From: Janthinobacterium lividum
Lineage (GTDB): Bacteria; Pseudomonadota; Gammaproteobacteria; Steroidobacterales; Steroidobacteraceae
DNA length: 10,369 bases
Assembly: GCA_943327025.2 (NCBI GenBank)
Contig: CALPVO020000058.1
Span: 1 to 10,369, forward strand
Direction: 5' to 3'
Position numbers and translations under genes: made by a program. Under the pieces are notes generated by a model that was not told the origin of the DNA, ran no database searches, and saw only the letters and a program-made list of their open reading frames with translations. Positions 2-7,113 of this stretch are shown piece after piece (position 1 is the first letter of the stretch; each line of letters opens with the position of its first letter).

Positions 2-1366
2 GTAGGCGATGGCACCACCTTGTCCGCCGTCGTGCGCCTCATCGACCGCGCACAAGCCGGGCGCCCCGCCATGGCCAGTCGCGCCGACCGTCTAGCCAGT
101 CGCTTCCTCGGTGCCCTACTCGGCCTTGCTGTCGTCGTGGCGCTGGTCTGGGCATGGCTGGACCCTTCGCGTCTTGTGCCCACAGTCATCGCCGTCTTGG
201 TTGTGGCTTGTCCTTGCGCCCTGTCATTGGCTGTCCCGACTGTTCTCACCGCCGCACTGCGGCGGTTGGCGCGTCAGGGCGTGTTGGTAGTCAACCCCGA
301 CGCCCTCGAACGCTTGGCCGGAGCCACGGACGTCGTCTTCGACAAGACCGGTACGCTCACAGCCGGGCATCCGATGGTCACCGATGTCACGCTGCTGCCC
401 GCAGGCAAGGGCGGCATCTCAGGGCCACCCACTACTGTACTTTCGCCTACTCCGGCTGCCGTGTTGCAGCTGGCCGCCGCGCTCGAAGCCGGTGCTGCCC
501 ATCCACTGGCGCGCGCTTTTCCGCCGCGCGGCCCAGTGCCTTCGGCACAGCAACTGGTACAGGTGACCGGCGAAGGGCTCGAAGGGATTGTGGAAGGTCA
601 GCGCCTGCGTATCGGGCGGGCATCGTTCGTCGCCGGGCTCGCGGGACCGGTGCCCAGCGTTGCCGCCGAAAACAATCTCTTCCTCGGGAGTGAATACGGC
701 TGGCTGGCAGCATTCACCGTACGCGATGAACTGCGTCCGGGTGTGAACCAGCTACTGGCCCGCTTGCGCACTGCGGGCCTGCGTATTCATTTGGTGAGCG
801 GCGACCGCACTGCCGCCGTTGCTACGTTAGCGGCAGAACTGGGTCTGAGCGATTGGCATGCCGAGGCACGTCCGGCGGATAAAGTGGCTTATGTGCAAGC
901 ACTGCAAGCGCGTGGTGGCCGAGTAGCCATGGTGGGCGATGGCTTGAACGACGCGCCGGTGCTCGCCGTCGCCGATGTATCGCTGGCCCTACAGGAAGGG
1001 ACCGCTCTGGCCCGAGCACAAGCCGACCTGATTCTCGGCGGTGACGGTCCGCGCGGGCTGTGGACAGCTTGGGTCATCGCACGTCGCGGCATGGCCCTGA
1101 TGCAGCAAAACTTGCGTTGGTCCGCCGCCTACAATCTCCTTGCCGTTCCCGCGGCAGCCGTGGGCCTCGTCGCGCCATGGCTGGCAGCCATCGGCATGTC
1201 CGCCAGTTCCTTAGGCGTGGTTCTCAACGCCCTGCGCATTGGCCAACCCATTTCCTTCACCGAGGTACCCGATGGACAGCCTGCTGTGGATCGTGCCGCT
1301 CAGCCTGCTGCTGGTGGCCCTGGCCTTGTGGGCATTCTTCTGGGCAGTGGACGCCGGGCAGTTTGA
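2..1366 (+). CDS. ccoI: cbb3 oxidase maturation copper P-type ATPase CcoI (5' end missing)
   Basis: P1B-type heavy-metal ATPase that moves copper across the inner membrane for assembly of the cbb3 cytochrome c oxidase (family knowledge). The reading frame is open from base 2, so the N-terminal metal-binding domain and first helices lie upstream of the window; the TTG at 20 is internal. Visible motifs: the CPC ion-binding motif in a membrane helix (209-217), the DKTGTLT phosphorylation loop (from 341), an HP motif in the nucleotide-binding domain (AAHPLARAF), and the hinge GDGLNDAP (935-958). Two C-terminal helices end in SSLGVVLNALR, typical of CcoI/FixI. The ccoS gene starting inside its 3' end makes CcoI much more likely than housekeeping CopA. 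About 40 residues follow NALR, out of frame with ccoS, so the tail looks like read-through rather than conserved protein. Confidence 0.93.
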   Translation, partial: VGDGTTLSAVVRLIDRAQAGRPAMASRADRLASRFLGALLGLAVVVALVWAWLDPSRLVPTVIAVLVVACPCALSLAVPTVLTAALRRLARQGVLVVNPDALERLAGATDVVFDKTGTLTAGHPMVTDVTLLPAGKGGISGPPTTVLSPTPAAVLQLAAALEAGAAHPLARAFPPRGPVPSAQQLVQVTGEGLEGIVEGQRLRIGRASFVAGLAGPVPSVAAENNLFLGSEYGWLAAFTVRDELRPGVNQLLARLRTAGLRIHLVSGDRTAAVATLAAELGLSDWHAEARPADKVAYVQALQARGGRVAMVGDGLNDAPVLAVADVSLALQEGTALARAQADLILGGDGPRGLWTAWVIARRGMALMQQNLRWSAAYNLLAVPAAAVGLVAPWLAAIGMSASSLGVVLNALRIGQPISFTEVPDGQPAVDRAAQPAAGGPGLVGILLGSGRRAV

Positions 1367-1475
1367 AGACCTCGAATCCCCTGGCTGGTCCGTACTGGAA
1401 GAAGACCAGCCGCCTACCACTGCACCGAACTCCACACCTGCGCCCGCACCTGCCACTGAAGACAAGGCACCATGA
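1272..1475 (+). CDS. ccoS: cbb3-type cytochrome oxidase assembly protein CcoS
   Basis: Small single-pass membrane protein needed for maturation of cbb3 oxidase (family knowledge). The 67-residue product has one N-terminal membrane helix (LLWIVPLSLLLVALALWAFF), then the family signature FFWAVDAGQFEDLESPGW, then a Pro/Ala/Thr-rich tail. I chose ATG 1272 because GAGG at 1262-1265 lies six bases upstream and the protein then begins MDSLLW, as usual for the family; a TTG at 1239 would add 11 residues without support. It overlaps ccoI by 95 bases, and its stop overlaps the next start as ATGA (1472-1475), which implies coupled translation. Confidence 0.95.
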   Translation: MDSLLWIVPLSLLLVALALWAFFWAVDAGQFEDLESPGWSVLEEDQPPTTAPNSTPAPAPATEDKAP

Positions 1476-2305
1476 TTGAAGCCGCGCTCTACGCGCAACT
1501 GACAGGAGCCATGCTGACCGGCCTCGCCGCTGGCGGGCACTGCCTCGGTATGTGCGGCGGCCTGCAAGCGGCGCTCATGCCCGCAGCTACCCCGGGCCTG
1601 TGGCGCCTGCAATGCGGGCGCAGTTTGGCCTACACGCTGTTGGGCGCCGTCGCGGGTGGTCTCGGTGCGGGCCTGGGTTCGGGTCTGGAGGCAGGCCTCG
1701 GTATCGGGTTCACAGCGCCCGCCGTCAACGTCCTGCGCCTCCTCGCCAGCCTCATGGCAACGCTAGCCCTCCTGAGTCTTGCTGCCCGTTTGGTGTTCCG
1801 CCGCGACCTTCTAGGGCTGGAGCGGCTAGGCGGGTACTTCTGGCGATGGCTGCAGCCGCTAGCGCGCCGTGCCGGAGAATGGCGGGAACCTTGGCGCAGC
1901 TACGCGCTGGGCATGGTGTGGGCCTTCATTCCCTGCGGCCTGGTGCTTTCCATGGCGGCACTCGCCGCTACCACCGGCGCCGCGTGGCACGGTGCCTTCC
2001 TGCTGGCTGCCTTTGCCCTCGGTACGTGGCCGGCCCTGCTTGGAGCGGGCGCCGTGGGCCGACTCACGGGGCTGGCTACCCGCGCGGTACCCAGCCGCGC
2101 CAACACCTGGGCGCGCTGGGCGCTAGCGATGGCGCTGGTCCTGCTCGCTGCCGCACAGGCGGCTTTCCTGTTCGCGCCCCACCAGGGCCATCACGCCGAC
2201 GACCCGGCCATGCCTCACCAGCACCACACCGCCGCACTTTCCGGCTTCCGTGATGGCGGCGGGAGCCTTACACTGTCGGTACGCGCCGTTCGCGCGCCAG
2301 CATGA
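1472..2305 (+). CDS. TauE/SafE-like (DsbD_2/UreH-type) membrane protein with His-rich tail
   Basis: Integral inner-membrane protein of 277 residues with about six hydrophobic segments. It carries the hallmark HCLGMCGG (residues 23-30) at the end of the first helix and a conserved IPCG (153-156) in a later helix, as in the cytochrome c biogenesis/TauE-SafE-like family that often follows ccoS in proteobacteria. Family members are linked to metal or thiol handling; the name 'sulfite exporter' is inherited and unproven here. The C-terminus after the last helix has seven His between residues 237 and 252, a plausible metal-binding tail. Start ATG 1472 overlaps the ccoS stop (ATGA), with AAGG just upstream. 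From position and motifs I infer a copper or redox role in cbb3 assembly; the substrate is unknown. Confidence 0.85.
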   Translation: MIEAALYAQLTGAMLTGLAAGGHCLGMCGGLQAALMPAATPGLWRLQCGRSLAYTLLGAVAGGLGAGLGSGLEAGLGIGFTAPAVNVLRLLASLMATLALLSLAARLVFRRDLLGLERLGGYFWRWLQPLARRAGEWREPWRSYALGMVWAFIPCGLVLSMAALAATTGAAWHGAFLLAAFALGTWPALLGAGAVGRLTGLATRAVPSRANTWARWALAMALVLLAAAQAAFLFAPHQGHHADDPAMPHQHHTAALSGFRDGGGSLTLSVRAVRAPA

Positions 2306-2307
2306 GG
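2304..2307 (+). promoter_or_regulatory. Ribosome binding site that fixes the GTG 2316 start
   Basis: GAGG at 2304-2307 lies eight bases before GTG 2316 and overlaps the TGA stop of the upstream membrane protein gene. This favours GTG 2316 over an in-frame ATG at 2250, which would overlap the upstream gene by 56 bases and has no such site. Confidence 0.55.
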
Positions 2308-2315
2308 TCGAAGCC

Positions 2316-2669
2316 GTGGGTAGGGAGTACGAGCCGAAAGCCGGCCAGTGGTATGAGAACCTGGACGAGGACACCTTGTTCCGCGTCGTCCGTGTGGACG
2401 AGGACGAGGGCATCATCACGCTCCACTACGAAGACGACGACGAGGCCGAGGAGATCGATCTCGATTCCTGGTACGAGTTGGACCTCGAGTTGTCGGCTGC
2501 CCCTGCAGTCCCCAGCGACTACGATGAAGAAGACGAGTGGGACGACGAGGAGGAAGACGACGACGAGGATGACGAGGACGATGACTGGGATGAAGACGAC
2601 GATGACGATGATGATGACGACTGGGAAGACGACGATGACGGTTCCGGCAGCAGCCGGAATGACTACTAG
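2316..2669 (+). CDS. DUF6763-like small protein with a polyacidic tail
   Basis: Predicted 117-residue cytoplasmic protein of unknown function. Residues 6-58 (EPKAGQWY..., FRVVRVDEDEGIITLHYEDD, EEIDLDSWYELDLE) resemble the small DUF6763-type proteins of gammaproteobacteria, recalled from memory and not searched. After a short Ala/Pro linker, residues 68-108 are 37 Asp/Glu out of 41; the only other residues are Tyr69 and Trp75, Trp91 and Trp103. About half of the whole protein (60 of 117) is Asp or Glu. GTG 2316 is preferred because of GAGG at 2304-2307. It sits 10 bases after the TauE/SafE-like gene and 27 before fixL, so it is probably cotranscribed. The tail could bind divalent metal or basic proteins; that is inference only. 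Confidence 0.75.
   Translation: MGREYEPKAGQWYENLDEDTLFRVVRVDEDEGIITLHYEDDDEAEEIDLDSWYELDLELSAAPAVPSDYDEEDEWDDEEEDDDEDDEDDDWDEDDDDDDDDDWEDDDDGSGSSRNDY
2517..2639 (+). repeat. GA-rich trinucleotide tract coding for the acidic tail
   Basis: A 123-base run built almost wholly of GAC, GAT, GAG and GAA codons, broken by one TAC and three TGG codons. Such low-complexity sequence is prone to replication slippage, so tail length may vary between strains. It codes in frame for residues 68-108 of the DUF6763-like protein. Confidence 0.7.
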
Positions 2670-2691
2670 CCGTCTGCAGTTGCAGGGCTAG
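2642..2691 (+). other. Two adjacent hairpins at the junction before fixL
   Basis: Hairpin 1 (2642-2659) is TTCCGGC-AGCA-GCCGGAA, a perfect 7-bp stem at the end of the DUF6763-like gene. Hairpin 2 (2666-2691) pairs CTAGCC with GGCTAG and, inside that, CTGCA with TGCAG, with a 2-base bulge at 2672-2673; it starts at the TAG stop and ends six bases before the fixL ATG. There is no T-run, so this is not a standard intrinsic terminator. The 3' arm of hairpin 2 holds the most likely fixL ribosome-binding bases (AGGG, 2684-2687), so it could dampen fixL translation or act as an attenuator or processing site. Confidence 0.45.
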
Positions 2692-2696
2692 CCAGG

Positions 2697-3836
2697 ATGC
2701 CCGCAGGTCTTCGTGCCCAACTGGACCTCCAAGCGGTACTCGATGCCGCTGTGGAGGCCGTCATCCTCATCGACGAGAACGGCGTCATCGAAACCTTCAA
2801 TCGCTCGGCCGAACGCTTGTTCGGCTGGACGGCCGCTGAAGTGATGGGCAAAAACGTCTCTTTGCTCATGGAAGGCGCCGACCGCACCGGTCACGACGGC
2901 TACCTCAAGCGCTTCTTGAACACTGGCGAAGCCAAAATCATCGGCATCGGCCGCGAGGTTCCGGCACGCCGCCGCGACGGGTCGGTATTCCCGGCCATGC
3001 TCGCCGTGGGCGAGGTGCAACAAAGCAATCCGCGCCGCTTTGTCGGCTTCCTGCACGACATCACGCGGCGGCGCCAGGCGGAAGAGGCCGCGCGCCAGTC
3101 CGAGGCGCGGCTCAACCACTTCGCACGCCTGTCCACCATGGGCGAAATGGCCGCCGGCCTCGCCCACGAAATCAACCAGCCACTGACCGCCATCGCCACC
3201 TTCTCGCAAGCAGCTACCCGCATGCTCGCGCGTCCGGAAGGTATTGAACGCGAGGACCTCAGCGAGGCCCTTGACCAGATCACTGCGCAGGCCCTGCGTG
3301 CTGGCGAAGTCATTCGTCGGCTGCGCGCCTTCGTGAAAAACCGCGAAGTCCGCCATGAAAGGGTGGACTGCAGGCGAGTGGTGGAAGACTCGCGCCTGTT
3401 GCTGGAGGCGGATGCGCGTAGCAACAACGTGCAACTGCGCTTGCAAGTGGCAGACTCACTGCCACCCATCACTGCCGACCCCGTGCAACTGCAACAGGTG
3501 CTCATCAACCTGGTGCGCAACGCCATCGAGGCCTCAATCGACGTTCCCGGTGCCCACCGCGAAGTGGTGGTCAGCGCCAAACTGGACGGCGAAGGCATGG
3601 TGGAAGTAGCGGTCGCCGATCATGGCCACGGCCTCTCCCCTGAAGCAGCCGAACGGCTGTTCCATCCCTTCTTCACCACCAAGCCCAGTGGTACTGGCCT
3701 TGGTCTGGTCATCAGCAGTTCCATCATCCGCGCCCATCATGGGCGTCTTGCTTACCGCAGTACGCCAGGTGGCGGTTGCACCTTCTTTTTCACGCTACCC
3801 CCACTCGGCGTTTTGCCGGGCGCTGAAAGCCACTGA
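2697..3836 (+). CDS. fixL: FixL-type heme-PAS oxygen-sensing histidine kinase
   Basis: Soluble sensor kinase of 379 residues with no membrane segment. Order: heme PAS domain (about 10-122), short coiled linker, HisKA, then HATPase_c. The PAS domain keeps the FixL heme pocket. His66 in GHDGYLKRF matches the proximal heme ligand (His200 of Bradyrhizobium FixL); Arg72 and Arg86 (IIGIGR) match Arg206 and Arg220 of the oxygen switch; the pocket residues Ile81, Leu102 and Val104 match Ile215, Leu236 and Ile238. The phospho-acceptor is His157 in GLAHEINQPLTAI. An N-box (NLVRNAIEA), DHGHGL and TKPSGTGLGL complete the ATP site. When oxygen leaves the heme, FixL kinases phosphorylate FixJ (family knowledge). 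ATG 2697 gives a normal PAS start but has only a weak ribosome site, inside a hairpin arm. The fixJ ATG 3855 follows 18 bases after the stop. Sitting beside ccoIS suggests control of cbb3 respiration. Confidence 0.92.
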   Translation: MPAGLRAQLDLQAVLDAAVEAVILIDENGVIETFNRSAERLFGWTAAEVMGKNVSLLMEGADRTGHDGYLKRFLNTGEAKIIGIGREVPARRRDGSVFPAMLAVGEVQQSNPRRFVGFLHDITRRRQAEEAARQSEARLNHFARLSTMGEMAAGLAHEINQPLTAIATFSQAATRMLARPEGIEREDLSEALDQITAQALRAGEVIRRLRAFVKNREVRHERVDCRRVVEDSRLLLEADARSNNVQLRLQVADSLPPITADPVQLQQVLINLVRNAIEASIDVPGAHREVVVSAKLDGEGMVEVAVADHGHGLSPEAAERLFHPFFTTKPSGTGLGLVISSSIIRAHHGRLAYRSTPGGGCTFFFTLPPLGVLPGAESH

Positions 3837-3841
3837 CGATC

Positions 3842-3845
3842 GGAG
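3842..3845 (+). promoter_or_regulatory. Ribosome binding site that decides the fixJ start
   Basis: GGAG at 3842-3845 touches ATG 3846 with no spacer but lies nine bases from ATG 3855. Normal spacing therefore favours ATG 3855 as the fixJ start. Confidence 0.6.
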
Positions 3846-3854
3846 ATGTCCGCC

Positions 3855-4478
3855 ATGAAAGAAAAAATCACCACCGTATTCGTGGTCGACGACGACGAAG
3901 CGGTCCGCACGTCGCTGAAGCTGCTGCTGCGGTCCGTAGGCTTACCCGTGGAAACCTGCGTTTCAGCACAAGAATTCCTCGACCGCTTCGATGCCGAGCG
4001 CCCAGGCTGCCTGGTCCTGGACATCCGCATGCCCGGCATGAGCGGCTTGGAACTGCAAGAGCGCCTAAATGCGATGCACGCCATGATCCCCGTGGTGTTC
4101 ATCACGGGGCACGGTGATGTGCCCATGGCCGTAGAGGCCATGCAGCATGGCGCCGTAGACTTCATCCAGAAGCCCTTCCGCGACCAAGACCTGCTGGACC
4201 GTATCAACCAAGCGCTCGAGAAAGACCGCGACAACCGCGCCGGCCTGCGTGAGCGCGACAACATCCGCGCCCGCATCGCCGACCTCACTCCGCGCGAGAA
4301 GGAAGTCATGGACCTCGTGACCGCAGGCAAGGCCAACAAGGTCATCGCGGGCGACCTCGACGTCAGCCAACGGACGGTGGAAATCCATCGCGCGCGGGTG
4401 ATGGAAAAGATGGGGGCGTCCTCGCTGGCTCACTTGGTCCGTATGATCATCGCCGCCGGTGAGGTCACGCCGAACTAA
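3855..4478 (+). CDS. fixJ: FixJ-family response regulator (receiver + LuxR-type HTH)
   Basis: Two-domain transcription regulator of 207 residues, partner of the FixL encoded just upstream. Receiver domain: acidic pocket Asp12/Asp13, phospho-acceptor Asp56 in LVLDIRMPGMSG, switch Thr84 (FITGHGDVPMAVEAM) and Lys106 in the KP motif. A short linker leads to a GerE/LuxR HTH (about 144-200: LTPREKEVMDLV... SQRTVEIHRARVMEKM). The FITGHGDVPMAVEAM stretch is typical of the FixJ subfamily rather than NarL. In rhizobia phosphorylated FixJ activates fixK and through it the cbb3 genes (established); the targets here are unknown. An ATG at 3846 would add three residues but has no room for a ribosome site. 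Confidence 0.93.
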   Translation: MKEKITTVFVVDDDEAVRTSLKLLLRSVGLPVETCVSAQEFLDRFDAERPGCLVLDIRMPGMSGLELQERLNAMHAMIPVVFITGHGDVPMAVEAMQHGAVDFIQKPFRDQDLLDRINQALEKDRDNRAGLRERDNIRARIADLTPREKEVMDLVTAGKANKVIAGDLDVSQRTVEIHRARVMEKMGASSLAHLVRMIIAAGEVTPN

Positions 4479-4590
4479 ACGGTGGCCCACCAAGCATCCG
4501 TAAAACCCGTTATAGCGGGGTGGCAGTGGTAGTGGGACATTGCGTAGGCTGCCGTTTTCTTTCCATTTTGCCCGGCAGCGGGTTACCCGC

Positions 4591-4980
4591 TTGGCCACTC
4601 TGCTCTACCCTGTCATCAGCCTCATCACCACCAATGCGCGGCTTGCGCGCGATTTCCTACGGTGGATGGAGCCGTATGCCGTGCTTGGGCGCGTCTTCCC
4701 TTCCGGGCAAGCTCTACTAGACGATGTAGACGGCGCGCAGACACAGCTGCTGGTACTGGCATCGGCGGTAAGCGACCTGCCCCTTGGAACACTCCTCCGG
4801 CAGTTGCGACTGCATGGCGAGGCGGACGCCATTTGCCTTGATGAGCAAGGTGACGTAGCGAGCGCCGTGGAGGCCCTCCGCGCGGGTGCCATCGACATTG
4901 TCGACTTGCCACAAGCGGAGCTTGCCCTCATTCGCCATGTACAGCGTATCCTTGGCAGCGGCCTCCCCCGGAGTGCCTGA
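4591..4980 (+). CDS. Degenerate FixJ-like receiver, phosphorylation-dead (possible FixT-like antikinase)
   Basis: Predicted stand-alone receiver-like protein of about 129 residues with no output domain. From ISLITTNARLA to IRHVQRIL it aligns with the receiver of FixJ next door with a single one-residue gap; shared stretches include SGQALLD against SAQEFLD and GDVASAVEALRAGAID against GDVPMAVEAMQHGAVD. Every phosphotransfer residue is replaced: Asp12/Asp13 by Thr/Thr, Asp56 by Ala, Thr84 by Asp, Lys106 by Leu. It could be a FixJ paralogue that binds FixL without accepting phosphate. FixT of Sinorhizobium is a known receiver-like inhibitor of FixL, so an analogous role is plausible but inferred. 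It has one Cys, so a FixT-type iron-sulfur cluster is unlikely. The start is uncertain: TTG 4591 puts the first strand near residue 9, whereas TTG 4540 would add 17 codons that are T-rich with poor GC3. Neither has a strong ribosome site. Confidence 0.68.
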   Translation: MATLLYPVISLITTNARLARDFLRWMEPYAVLGRVFPSGQALLDDVDGAQTQLLVLASAVSDLPLGTLLRQLRLHGEADAICLDEQGDVASAVEALRAGAIDIVDLPQAELALIRHVQRILGSGLPRSA

Positions 4981-4991
4981 AGGGCACGGTT

Positions 4992-5069
4992 GCCCAGTTC
5001 GTACTGCCGATTCGTACCACCGAGTCGTTCTGCGCAGCCGTGCTGCCAAGTCGTGTCGCGGAGTCTTGC
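4992..5069 (+). repeat. Six degenerate 13-bp tandem units upstream of the VIT-type gene
   Basis: The spacer between the degenerate receiver gene and the iron-transporter gene divides into six consecutive 13-mers (4992, 5005, 5018, 5031, 5044, 5057), consensus roughly TGCCGAGTCGTGC. Columns 3 (C), 9 (C) and 11 (T) agree in 6 of 6; columns 6 (A), 8 (T), 10 (G) and 13 (C) agree in 5 of 6. Thirteen is not a multiple of three, so coding periodicity does not explain it. The last unit contains the ribosome site (GGAG, 5060-5063). It could be a cluster of regulator sites or a decayed satellite. Confidence 0.55.
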
Positions 5070-5070
5070 C

Positions 5071-6117
5071 ATGTCGACCGAAAACGCTGCTGAAAGCTGG
5101 TTCCATGAACGTCAGTCCGCTTGGCTTTACCGCATTCTGGCGGACTGCGAGACAGACCCGGCCAAGCGCTCTCTGTTCGTTTCGCTGGGTGCTGCCGCGG
5201 AAGAACAAGCGCTCACTTGGGAACGCAATGGCGGGCTGACGCCAGCCTTCATCGCCGCCTTCCAACCCAGCGCGCGTGCACGATTGGTAGCCGTGCTGCT
5301 CCGCCGCCTCGGCCCGCGGCGTATGAAGACGGCACTCATCGCCATGAAGCTGCGCGGACTTTCTGTCTATGGCGCCGGCGCGCCCACCCCCGGCCATGCC
5401 ATGCCCACCTCCGTGTCGGAAGTCGGCGCACGCCACAAGAGCATGGGTGGCGGCAACCTGCGCGCTGCCGTCTTCGGTGTGAACGATGGGCTCGTGTCGA
5501 ACGCCAGTTTGTTGATGGGCGTGGCCGGCGCTGGCGCGACCAGTGGTGCGGCGCTGACTGCCGGCGTCGCCGGGTTGTTGGCCGGCGCCTTGTCCATGGC
5601 GGCCGGCGAATACATCTCCGTGCGTTCGCAGCGCGAGATGTTCGAATACCAGATTGGCCTGGAGCGCGAAGAACTCGAGGAATACCCCGAGGAAGAGGCA
5701 GAAGAACTGGCGCTCATCTACGCTGCCCGTGGCATGGACTTGGCCCGTGCCCGCGAGATGACCTATGAACTGGTGAAGAACCCGGAACACGCGCTGGACG
5801 CTCTGGCCCGCGAAGAATTGGGCCTGAACCCCGATGACCTCGGCTCGCCGTGGAGTGCCGCGCTATTTAGTTTCCTGGCGTTCTCGCTGGGCGCGGCGCT
5901 GCCCTTGCTGCCGTTCCTGCTTGGCCATGCCGTCAACCAGGCGGCGGTCTACGCCGCCGGGCTGAGTGGCGTGGCGCTGTTTGCTGTCGGCATGGTGTTG
6001 TCGCTGTTCACCGGCCGCAACGCGTTCGTTGGCGGCTTGCGCATGCTGGCTATCGGTGCAGGTGCCGGTGCCATTACCTTCGGCATTGGGCACTGGCTCG
6101 GCGGCGTGGTGGGCTAA
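5071..6117 (+). CDS. VIT1/CCC1-family iron/manganese transporter with ferritin-like N-terminal region (MbfA-like)
   Basis: Inner-membrane protein of 348 residues. Residues 8-55 (HERQSAWLYRILAD, then EEQALTWE) look like two helices of a rubrerythrin/ferritin-like domain, as in MbfA-type proteins, which export iron and lower iron and peroxide stress (family knowledge). Residues 125-348 are the VIT1/CCC1 membrane domain: NLRAAVFGVNDGLVSN (129-144), GALSMAAGEYISVRSQ (172-187), an acidic cytoplasmic segment (EREELEEYPEEEAEEL, 198-213) expected to bind metal, then three hydrophobic segments. Oddity: the usual ExxH iron-ligand pair of the ferritin part appears as AAEEQ, with the His position taken by Gln46, so it may bind iron poorly. 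ATG 5071 has GGAG (5060-5063) seven bases upstream; a longer frame from GTG 4990 would run through the 13-bp repeats and is rejected. Confidence 0.88.
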   Translation: MSTENAAESWFHERQSAWLYRILADCETDPAKRSLFVSLGAAAEEQALTWERNGGLTPAFIAAFQPSARARLVAVLLRRLGPRRMKTALIAMKLRGLSVYGAGAPTPGHAMPTSVSEVGARHKSMGGGNLRAAVFGVNDGLVSNASLLMGVAGAGATSGAALTAGVAGLLAGALSMAAGEYISVRSQREMFEYQIGLEREELEEYPEEEAEELALIYAARGMDLARAREMTYELVKNPEHALDALAREELGLNPDDLGSPWSAALFSFLAFSLGAALPLLPFLLGHAVNQAAVYAAGLSGVALFAVGMVLSLFTGRNAFVGGLRMLAIGAGAGAITFGIGHWLGGVVG

Positions 6118-6137
6118 GGCCCGCGACGCTTAGGCCC
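6111..6137. terminator. Hairpin holding both stop codons of the convergent genes (possible bidirectional terminator)
   Basis: GGGCTAAG (6111-6118) pairs with CTTA-G-GCCC (6129-6137): eight base pairs, one bulged G, a ten-base loop. TAA of the VIT-type gene (6115-6117) and TAA of cbpA (6132-6130, minus strand) lie opposite each other in the stem. No T-run follows on either strand, so it is not a canonical intrinsic terminator, but it is the only candidate at this 12-base convergent junction. Confidence 0.35.
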
Positions 6138-7113
6138 AGCCCTCGCGCGGGTGGTAAGCGACTGCGTCGCGTAGCGCTTCCCAAGCCGCGGCTACGGCGG
6201 GGTCCTCATTCGCTGGCGGCATGGCGATGTCGACCACCACATAAAGGTCGCCGCGGCCTTCGGCTGCACCGCGTTCGCCGGCAAAGCCTCGACCACGCAG
6301 GCGCAGTTTGCGGCCCGCACTGCTGCCCGCCGGAATACGCAGGTCCACAGCGCCTTCCAGCGTGGGCACTTGCACGGTGGCCCCCAGCGCCGCTTCCCAC
6401 GGCGCCAGCGGCACGTGGAGGTGCAGGTCGCGCCCTTCCAATTGGTAATGGCGGTGCGGATGGTGCTGCACTTCCAGCAGCAAATCGCCAAACGGGCCGC
6501 CGACACCTTCGTCACCCTGACTACCCAACCGAATGACCTGTCCGGGCAAGACTCCCGCGGGAATCTTCACGCGCAAGTTGCGCCGCTCCGTCGTACCGTC
6601 CGCACGACGACGATCGAAGTCGATTTCGCGGGGGGCGCCAGCGTGGGCTTCTTCCAAGGTCACCGCCAGCACGACGCGTACGTCTCGACCACGCGCACGG
6701 GCCTGCCGCGCCTGACCGGCACGTCTGCCAAAGAGTTCGCCAAGGTCCTCGCCGCCGCTGAAGCCACCGCCGGCATTGCTGCCGAACAGCGACGAGAAAA
6801 AATCGCTGAAGCCACCACTGGCATGTGCACCGCCCTGCGGCCCGCCACGCCCGCCAAAGTCAAAACCCGGGGGCGCACGGAACTGCTGACCATCCCGCCA
6901 ATTGGCGCCCAACTGGTCGTAGGCCGCTCGCTTCTCGGTGTCCTTCAGGACCTCGTACGCTTCCTGCACTTCCTTGAAGCGCGCCTCTGCATTCTTTTCC
7001 TTGCTGACGTCCGGGTGAAACTTGCGCGCCTTGCGCCGGTAGGCGCGCTTGATTTCTTCCGCATCAGCGGTACGCGGCACCCCAAGCAGGGCGTAGTAGT
7101 CACGGTATTCCAT
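6130..7113 (-). CDS. cbpA: CbpA-type J-domain co-chaperone (DnaJ family, no zinc finger)
   Basis: Class B Hsp40 of 327 residues that stimulates the DnaK ATPase and delivers clients (family knowledge). J domain at 3-70 with HPD at 33-35 (KFHPDVSKEKNA). A Gly/Phe-rich stretch covers about 75-125 (FSDFFSSLFGS, GGEDLGELFG). The C-terminal substrate-binding domains start near 135 (RGRDVRVVLAVTLEEAHAG) and include GRDLHLHVPLAPWEAALG. There is no CxxCxGxG, so it is CbpA-like rather than true DnaJ. ATG 7113 gives MEYRDYYALLGV, the usual family start; a GTG at 7119 adds two residues. Neither has a convincing ribosome site, and a heat-shock-like promoter lies directly upstream, so the mRNA may be leaderless. 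No cbpM-like modulator gene is visible beside it. Confidence 0.9.
   Translation of the reverse strand: MEYRDYYALLGVPRTADAEEIKRAYRRKARKFHPDVSKEKNAEARFKEVQEAYEVLKDTEKRAAYDQLGANWRDGQQFRAPPGFDFGGRGGPQGGAHASGGFSDFFSSLFGSNAGGGFSGGEDLGELFGRRAGQARQARARGRDVRVVLAVTLEEAHAGAPREIDFDRRRADGTTERRNLRVKIPAGVLPGQVIRLGSQGDEGVGGPFGDLLLEVQHHPHRHYQLEGRDLHLHVPLAPWEAALGATVQVPTLEGAVDLRIPAGSSAGRKLRLRGRGFAGERGAAEGRGDLYVVVDIAMPPANEDPAVAAAWEALRDAVAYHPREGWA

Follow-up and report, generated by a model that had tools for sequence, protein, structure and literature searches.

A FixJ-like pseudo-receiver behind fixLJ in the Steroidobacteraceae: an extreme member of a series and a candidate third part of an oxygen switch

On pSymA of S. 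meliloti, a small ORF (L090:22329-22676, minus strand), whose product shares 95% identity with a protein named FixT, lies behind fixJ and ahead of a gene that we read from its sequence as CRP-like and take to be fixK1, the gene that follows fixT1. In Caulobacter crescentus, FixT is described as a receiver-like negative regulator of FixL (PMC7078487). FixT is reported to lower the autophosphorylation of FixL while leaving dephosphorylation unaffected, and Osp of Rhodobacter sphaeroides to inhibit autophosphorylation of CckA in the same way, again with dephosphorylation unaffected (PMC7078487, PMC9430884); according to the same papers, both proteins are not phosphorylated and have no acidic pair (PMC9430884, PMC7078487). 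A 2025 perspective, in which receiver-like proteins without the key catalytic residues are treated as pseudo-receivers, calls their switching a mystery, states in its section 7 that the second acidic residue binds the metal directly, and describes the cmrRST operon of Clostridioides difficile, where a kinase, a normal regulator, and an atypical regulator, CmrT, occur together (PMC12632262). CmrT has been described as a response regulator of the OmpR family. FixT and Osp find no mention in the main text of that perspective, and no title or abstract start among the matches listed from the open-access PMC literature describes a group of pseudo-receivers linked to fixLJ.

The present analysis concerns such a gene in a window of 10,369 nucleotides, the whole stretch of DNA that was analyzed, whose features in and around fixLJ are as follows.

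2..1366, plus strand: copper-ATPase-like end (assigned by reading the sequence)
1239..1475, plus strand: fixS/ccoS
1472..2305, plus strand: DsbD_2-type membrane protein
2250..2669, plus strand: DUF6763 gene
2697..3836, plus strand: fixL, heme-PAS-like sensor histidine kinase (PAS, HisKA, HATPase_c; Pfam)
3846..4478, plus strand: fixJ, response regulator with intact DD, D, T, and K and a LuxR-type DNA-binding domain (Pfam)
4479..4590, plus strand: gap of 112 bases between fixJ and the pseudo-receiver
4591..4980, plus strand: single-domain FixJ-like pseudo-receiver, 129 amino acids, TTG start, all phosphotransfer residues gone
4990..6117 (ORF as listed), plus strand: VIT1-family gene, probable start ATG 5071 (Pfam VIT1, E 2.9e-69, and sibling sequences)

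The upstream genes at 2..2669 read as the surroundings of cytochrome cbb3 assembly; the DUF6763 gene just 5′ of fixL encodes a very acidic tail with long Asp and Glu runs. FixL heme-PAS structures such as 1dp6 match residues 10-130 of the fixL product, which scores 364.6 bits against the NCBIfam FixL model, under its cut-off of 850, and the fixJ product passes the NCBIfam FixJ cut-off (256.4 bits; cut-off 255). Its probable start is a Met codon (MKEK) near 3855, where many sibling FixJs also begin, and not 3846. The VIT1-family product has a ferritin-like-looking stretch (WFHERQ...AAEEQALTW) ahead of its VIT part, an arrangement that presumably resembles MbfA-type iron exporters. The pseudo-receiver itself lies directly behind fixLJ, as the earlier note on this DNA had it, on the plus strand. 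Because the divergent genus-mate G002 has GTG at the equivalent position, TTG 4591 is the likely start. The next listed ORF begins 9 bases after the pseudo-receiver ORF ends. In the gap between fixJ and the pseudo-receiver there is no FNR/FixK-type box above chance (the window holds five FixK/FNR-type matches with up to two mismatches, against 6.0 expected by chance), no sigma-70-like promoter, and no plus-strand terminator-like site; one terminator-like site lies on the minus strand at 4492-4480. A FixK/FNR promoter belonging to the pseudo-receiver alone was rejected on the box count and on the absence of a sigma-70-like site anywhere in 2200-6300.

The 129-residue product aligns with the neighboring FixJ (3846-4478) with one single-residue gap, and all five residues on which phosphotransfer depends are absent from it in the manner first claimed: where a phosphorylatable receiver has DD, D, T or S, and K, and the neighboring FixJ has DD, D, T, and K, the window protein has TT, A, D, and L. 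The residue numbers originally given for these changes, 12/13, 56, 84, and 106, hold for FixJ counted from Met4 (about 3855), but counted from the first Met of the ORF they become 15/16, 59, 87, and 109. Pfam likewise finds no DNA-binding domain, in agreement with the earlier reading. By sequence the protein reaches an E of 0.014 and 16 bits against Pfam Response_reg, under its cut-off of 30.2, and an E of 6.5e-9, under the model cut-off, against NCBIfam FixJ; its nearest solved chain by sequence is the FixJ receiver 1d5w (E 3.9e-5). An AlphaFold2 model built from an alignment of 24 sequences (pLDDT 84.2, pTM 0.81) has a receiver fold. Foldseek gives 221 matches in the PDB at E<=0.001; every one of the best 50 is either a receiver or a receiver-like protein (TadZ, CpaE), and B. 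japonicum FixJ comes ninth. The predicted fold, a point on which the first reading could have failed, is thus the (beta-alpha)5 fold of a receiver, and with its key catalytic residues lacking the protein is a pseudo-receiver in the sense of PMC12632262, although it stays under the Response_reg cut-off. These results, with the conservation described next, support the view that the window product is a conserved, phosphorylation-dead, FixJ-like receiver behind fixLJ.

Conservation extends to the lost residues. A search of 5.8 billion proteins returned 33 homologues at E<=0.001, all of which have A, T, or S in place of the acceptor Asp; the acidic pair is missing in all 30 that cover that position, the Thr position holds Asp in 30 and Glu in 2 (1 does not cover it), and Lys is aligned at the Lys position in a single homologue. 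The window protein has one Cys (Cys82), and exactly one is present in 31 of the 33. Three genus-mates carry the receiver in the same place (G003, 93% identity; G001, 85-86%; G002, 43%), and the reading frame is open in all three and in the window genome. By the NG86 method the receiver has dN/dS values of 0.155, 0.144, and 0.148 in three close pairs, next to about 0.12-0.15 (0.117-0.147) for FixL and 0.045-0.068 for FixJ. The pseudo-receiver is under purifying selection, which together with the 33 homologues places its ORF beyond chance. Matches at E<=0.01 in 55 of 59 relatives are, as far as they were looked at, mostly FixJ or other receivers and were set aside as not orthologous. A decaying, functionless duplicate of the FixJ receiver could account for the loss of every phosphotransfer residue, for the length of some branches in the tree described below, and for the higher dN/dS of 0.28-0.32 against the distant G002; the values of 0.14-0.16 in close pairs, which are like those of FixL, the open frames, and the homologues make it extremely improbable, and a pseudogene is rejected on dN/dS and open frames. 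The earlier note had exposed its claim to a lack of homologues combined with neutral decay, and these figures dispose of that concern.

The earlier note missed the series to which the window gene belongs as an extreme member: pseudo-receivers linked to fixLJ, both in its own family and outside it. At 46 loci from 16 genera and 5 families, fixL and fixJ have behind them, in the same orientation, a FixJ-like receiver that carries no other domain; 38 of these loci belong to the window's family and 8 to four other families. They derive from profile searches of overlapping draws of 120 genomes of the family, 296 of the order, and 369 of the class, and a second contig of G027 with the same locus is left out of the count. 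Since 37 of the 46 fall in the 120-genome draw, at least 37 of those 120 family genomes carry such a receiver; FixJ, sought in the same 120, reached E<=1e-45 in 106. The second acidic residue is non-acidic in every one of the 46 receivers (P in 15, A in 12, S in 9, G in 5, T in 4, and H in 1). Elsewhere the loss is graded: the first acidic residue stays acidic in 35, the acceptor position holds Asp in 19, Glu in 17, and other residues in 10, and Thr is kept in 6 and Lys in 37, the assignment of key residues in the alignment being uncertain for L067, L069, and L082. The partner FixJs read DDDTK at 44 loci and DDDSK at 2, with the second acidic residue acidic in all 46. Because acceptor Asp and Lys are retained as often as this, some siblings may still be weakly phosphorylated. 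The 17 loci with Glu at the acceptor position include all four of genus g23 and all six of genus g24, and this change may represent a phosphomimic state.

All 30 listed matches scoring above the first FixJ match (G112) in the family profile search adjoin a FixJ. Another 27 fixJ-type loci showed no clear second receiver in the profile lists; read downstream, they yielded three more degenerate receivers (L069, L082, and L088, included in the 46) and no intact single-domain receiver behind fixJ. At L080, the ORF behind fixJ is long and kinase-like and ends in a receiver-like part. Profiles built from the receivers also match FixJ itself at E of about 1e-35, so intact neighboring receivers should have shown up. 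A further profile search was confined in its scoring to the 7999 candidates that share most words; at E<=1e-25 it found 4168 proteins, and the best 120 listed include 113 new ones, 110 without an acidic residue at the second position of the pair and 3 with Glu for the acceptor Asp. The window receiver belongs with the group in sharing a branch with the sibling receivers, in having lost the second acidic residue, and in lying behind fixLJ. Four members of genus g23 that were looked at, like most other fixJ loci read downstream, have no receiver, and FixLJ therefore works without one. At three g23 loci (L065, L070, and L071), VIT directly follows fixLJ with no receiver found between them, and four other members have the receiver, an apparent loss or gain within one genus. 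Other strongly degenerate receivers behind fixLJ, at L067 (g10), L069 and L082 (g11), L088 (g14), and L128 (family f10), are perhaps independent end states; those at L069 and L082 are each followed by another receiver-like stretch. One contig of a genus-mate of the window (L027, CALQLF020000001.1) bears the label Candidatus Planktophila lacus; this name is actinobacterial, at odds with the contig's fixLJ relatives, and probably marks a mislabeled MAG.

Kinship was assessed by a tree and by comparison of profiles. In a tree of 67 rows made by a quick method (43 receivers, 17 FixJs, 4 FixTs, and three other receivers; 6 of the 46 receivers are omitted as near copies, and 17 of the 46 FixJ rows and 3 of the 33 homologues are used), one branch with SH-aLRT 97 separates the receivers from FixJ, FixT, and the three other receivers. 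Several receiver rows, L088 and L067 among them, have very long branches, and where within the receiver branch the window genus belongs is uncertain because long branches meet, that of the window genus with that of genus g11. Profiles were compared for 37 loci (without the last 9), with L067 dropped from the receivers and L040 from the FixJs, and the E-values are per single pairwise comparison: the window group matches the sibling receivers at 8.6e-23, the FixJ receivers at 8.2e-11, and FixT at 0.41, and the siblings match FixT at 2.8e-5, more weakly than FixJ does (3.7e-6). By profile comparison and by tree, the window group is not closer to FixT than to FixJ, and descent as an orthologue of S. 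meliloti FixT is rejected by both. The separateness from FixT that was originally suggested is supported, for the S. meliloti protein, by the profile comparison. A second argument for it, that a lack of Cys pairs sets the window protein apart from iron-sulfur FixT, stands for Caulobacter FixT, whose four-Cys Fe-S motif the single Cys of the window protein does not match, and fails for S. meliloti FixT1, which has two Cys; it is limited to Caulobacter because the motif is described as unique to that FixT (PMC7078487). The sequences give no support for common descent with S. meliloti FixT beyond the receiver superfamily, and the FixT-like arrangement was probably reached independently of it.

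The surfaces of the receivers were compared region by region with the FixJ of the same locus; the comparison covers 36 of the 46 loci and is weak evidence because only three control receivers were available. Helix alpha1 is the usual kinase-docking helix. Its identity to the locus's own FixJ is 40% in 32 siblings, against 21% in the three controls, and 45% for S. meliloti FixT and its FixJ (one pair). Our first choice, a tentative one that we place somewhat short of an even chance, is that the pseudo-receiver binds FixL as a brake, a role that the earlier note had considered alongside that of a decoy. It would be inherited together with the oxygen sensor pair FixL-FixJ, be made together with both, and act through binding and not through phosphate, the kinase core of FixL being its most likely target. 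The outcome would be lower FixL autophosphorylation or less access for FixJ, as for FixT of S. meliloti and Caulobacter and for Osp on CckA, a function that would have arisen separately from S. meliloti FixT. For the window genus, alpha1 has 0% identity to its own FixJ, so any FixL binding there would be by a rebuilt surface, and the contrast with the 40% of the siblings weakens the case for a brake in the window genus relative to them. The rebuilt helix is 67-71% identical pairwise within the window genus, about as conserved as the rest of the protein, which a new partner would explain: the protein might be an adaptor for a ligand or another protein, with its linkage to FixLJ reflecting shared expression only. 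The persistence of the fixLJ link in five families, while VIT is close by at 20 of 46 loci, speaks against such an adaptor, and we regard it as decidedly unlikely. Conservation by secondary-structure element is too even to name one binding face.

Action on FixL as a brake has its main rival in pairing with FixJ, in which the dead receiver would form a heterodimer through the alpha4-beta5 face and block or redirect DNA binding. WhiI, which redirects BldM, is cited as a precedent (PMC12632262). Helix alpha4 is the part most like the locus's own FixJ (53% identity in the window genus and 60% in siblings), but it also reaches 52% in the three controls, as expected of a face conserved in general. 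The alpha4-beta5/beta5 stretch is 66% identical in siblings against 47% in controls, yet only 38%, under the controls, in the window genus. The change of D to E at 17 of 46 loci could mimic phosphorylation; an output domain, however, is absent. On balance we consider this pairing unlikely. Cooperation with the downstream VIT1-type iron transporter instead of FixLJ, suggested by a VIT gene within 120 bases at those 20 of 46 loci, the window among them, is improbable to a far greater degree: no VIT was found that close at the other 26 receiver loci (some stretches end early), and three loci have fixLJ and VIT without a receiver, so VIT is not a constant partner.

A broader reading, to which we give just below an even chance, is a three-part oxygen switch of FixL, FixJ, and pseudo-receiver in a whole group of Steroidobacteraceae and related gammaproteobacteria, in which the third part would have arisen apart from S. 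meliloti FixT and would gate FixL or FixJ without phosphate, and in which the window genus would be the end state, with every phosphotransfer residue gone and the docking helix rebuilt. Keeping a single gene order, the loci make up a large natural series that runs from receivers with Asp and Lys but without the metal-binding residue to the loss of everything, and each member adjoins an intact FixJ that serves as an internal control. Should these receivers act on FixL or FixJ, the oxygen switch would have acquired FixT-like control more than once, and comparison along the series could show which surface carries the effect.

The window protein belongs to an already known kind, the FixT-like and Osp-like single-domain receivers; what is new is the pseudo-receiver series across the family and beyond, together with the absence of specific kinship with S. 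meliloti FixT. Its closest curated family and its closest solved structure by sequence are those of its partner, the FixJ receiver, which keeps all five residues and a DNA-binding domain, whereas the window protein has neither. The cmrRST operon shares its gene make-up of kinase, normal regulator, and atypical regulator, although CmrT is an OmpR-family regulator and the window protein a receiver alone. Osp, which can be likened to it by description and not by sequence, is likewise a single-domain receiver without the acidic pair but acts on CckA, unlike the FixL target proposed here. Caulobacter FixT is set apart, again by description and not by sequence, by its four-Cys Fe-S motif against one Cys. 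S. meliloti FixT shares the arrangement of the window protein, being single-domain, receiver-like, and directly behind fixJ, and the acidic pair is lost in both. Both also have Asp at the receiver Thr position (the invariant Asp80 of FixT; 30 of 33 in the window group), which we read as coincidence or convergence, and FixT, unlike the window protein, still has the Lys, along with an Asp pair in its acceptor region.
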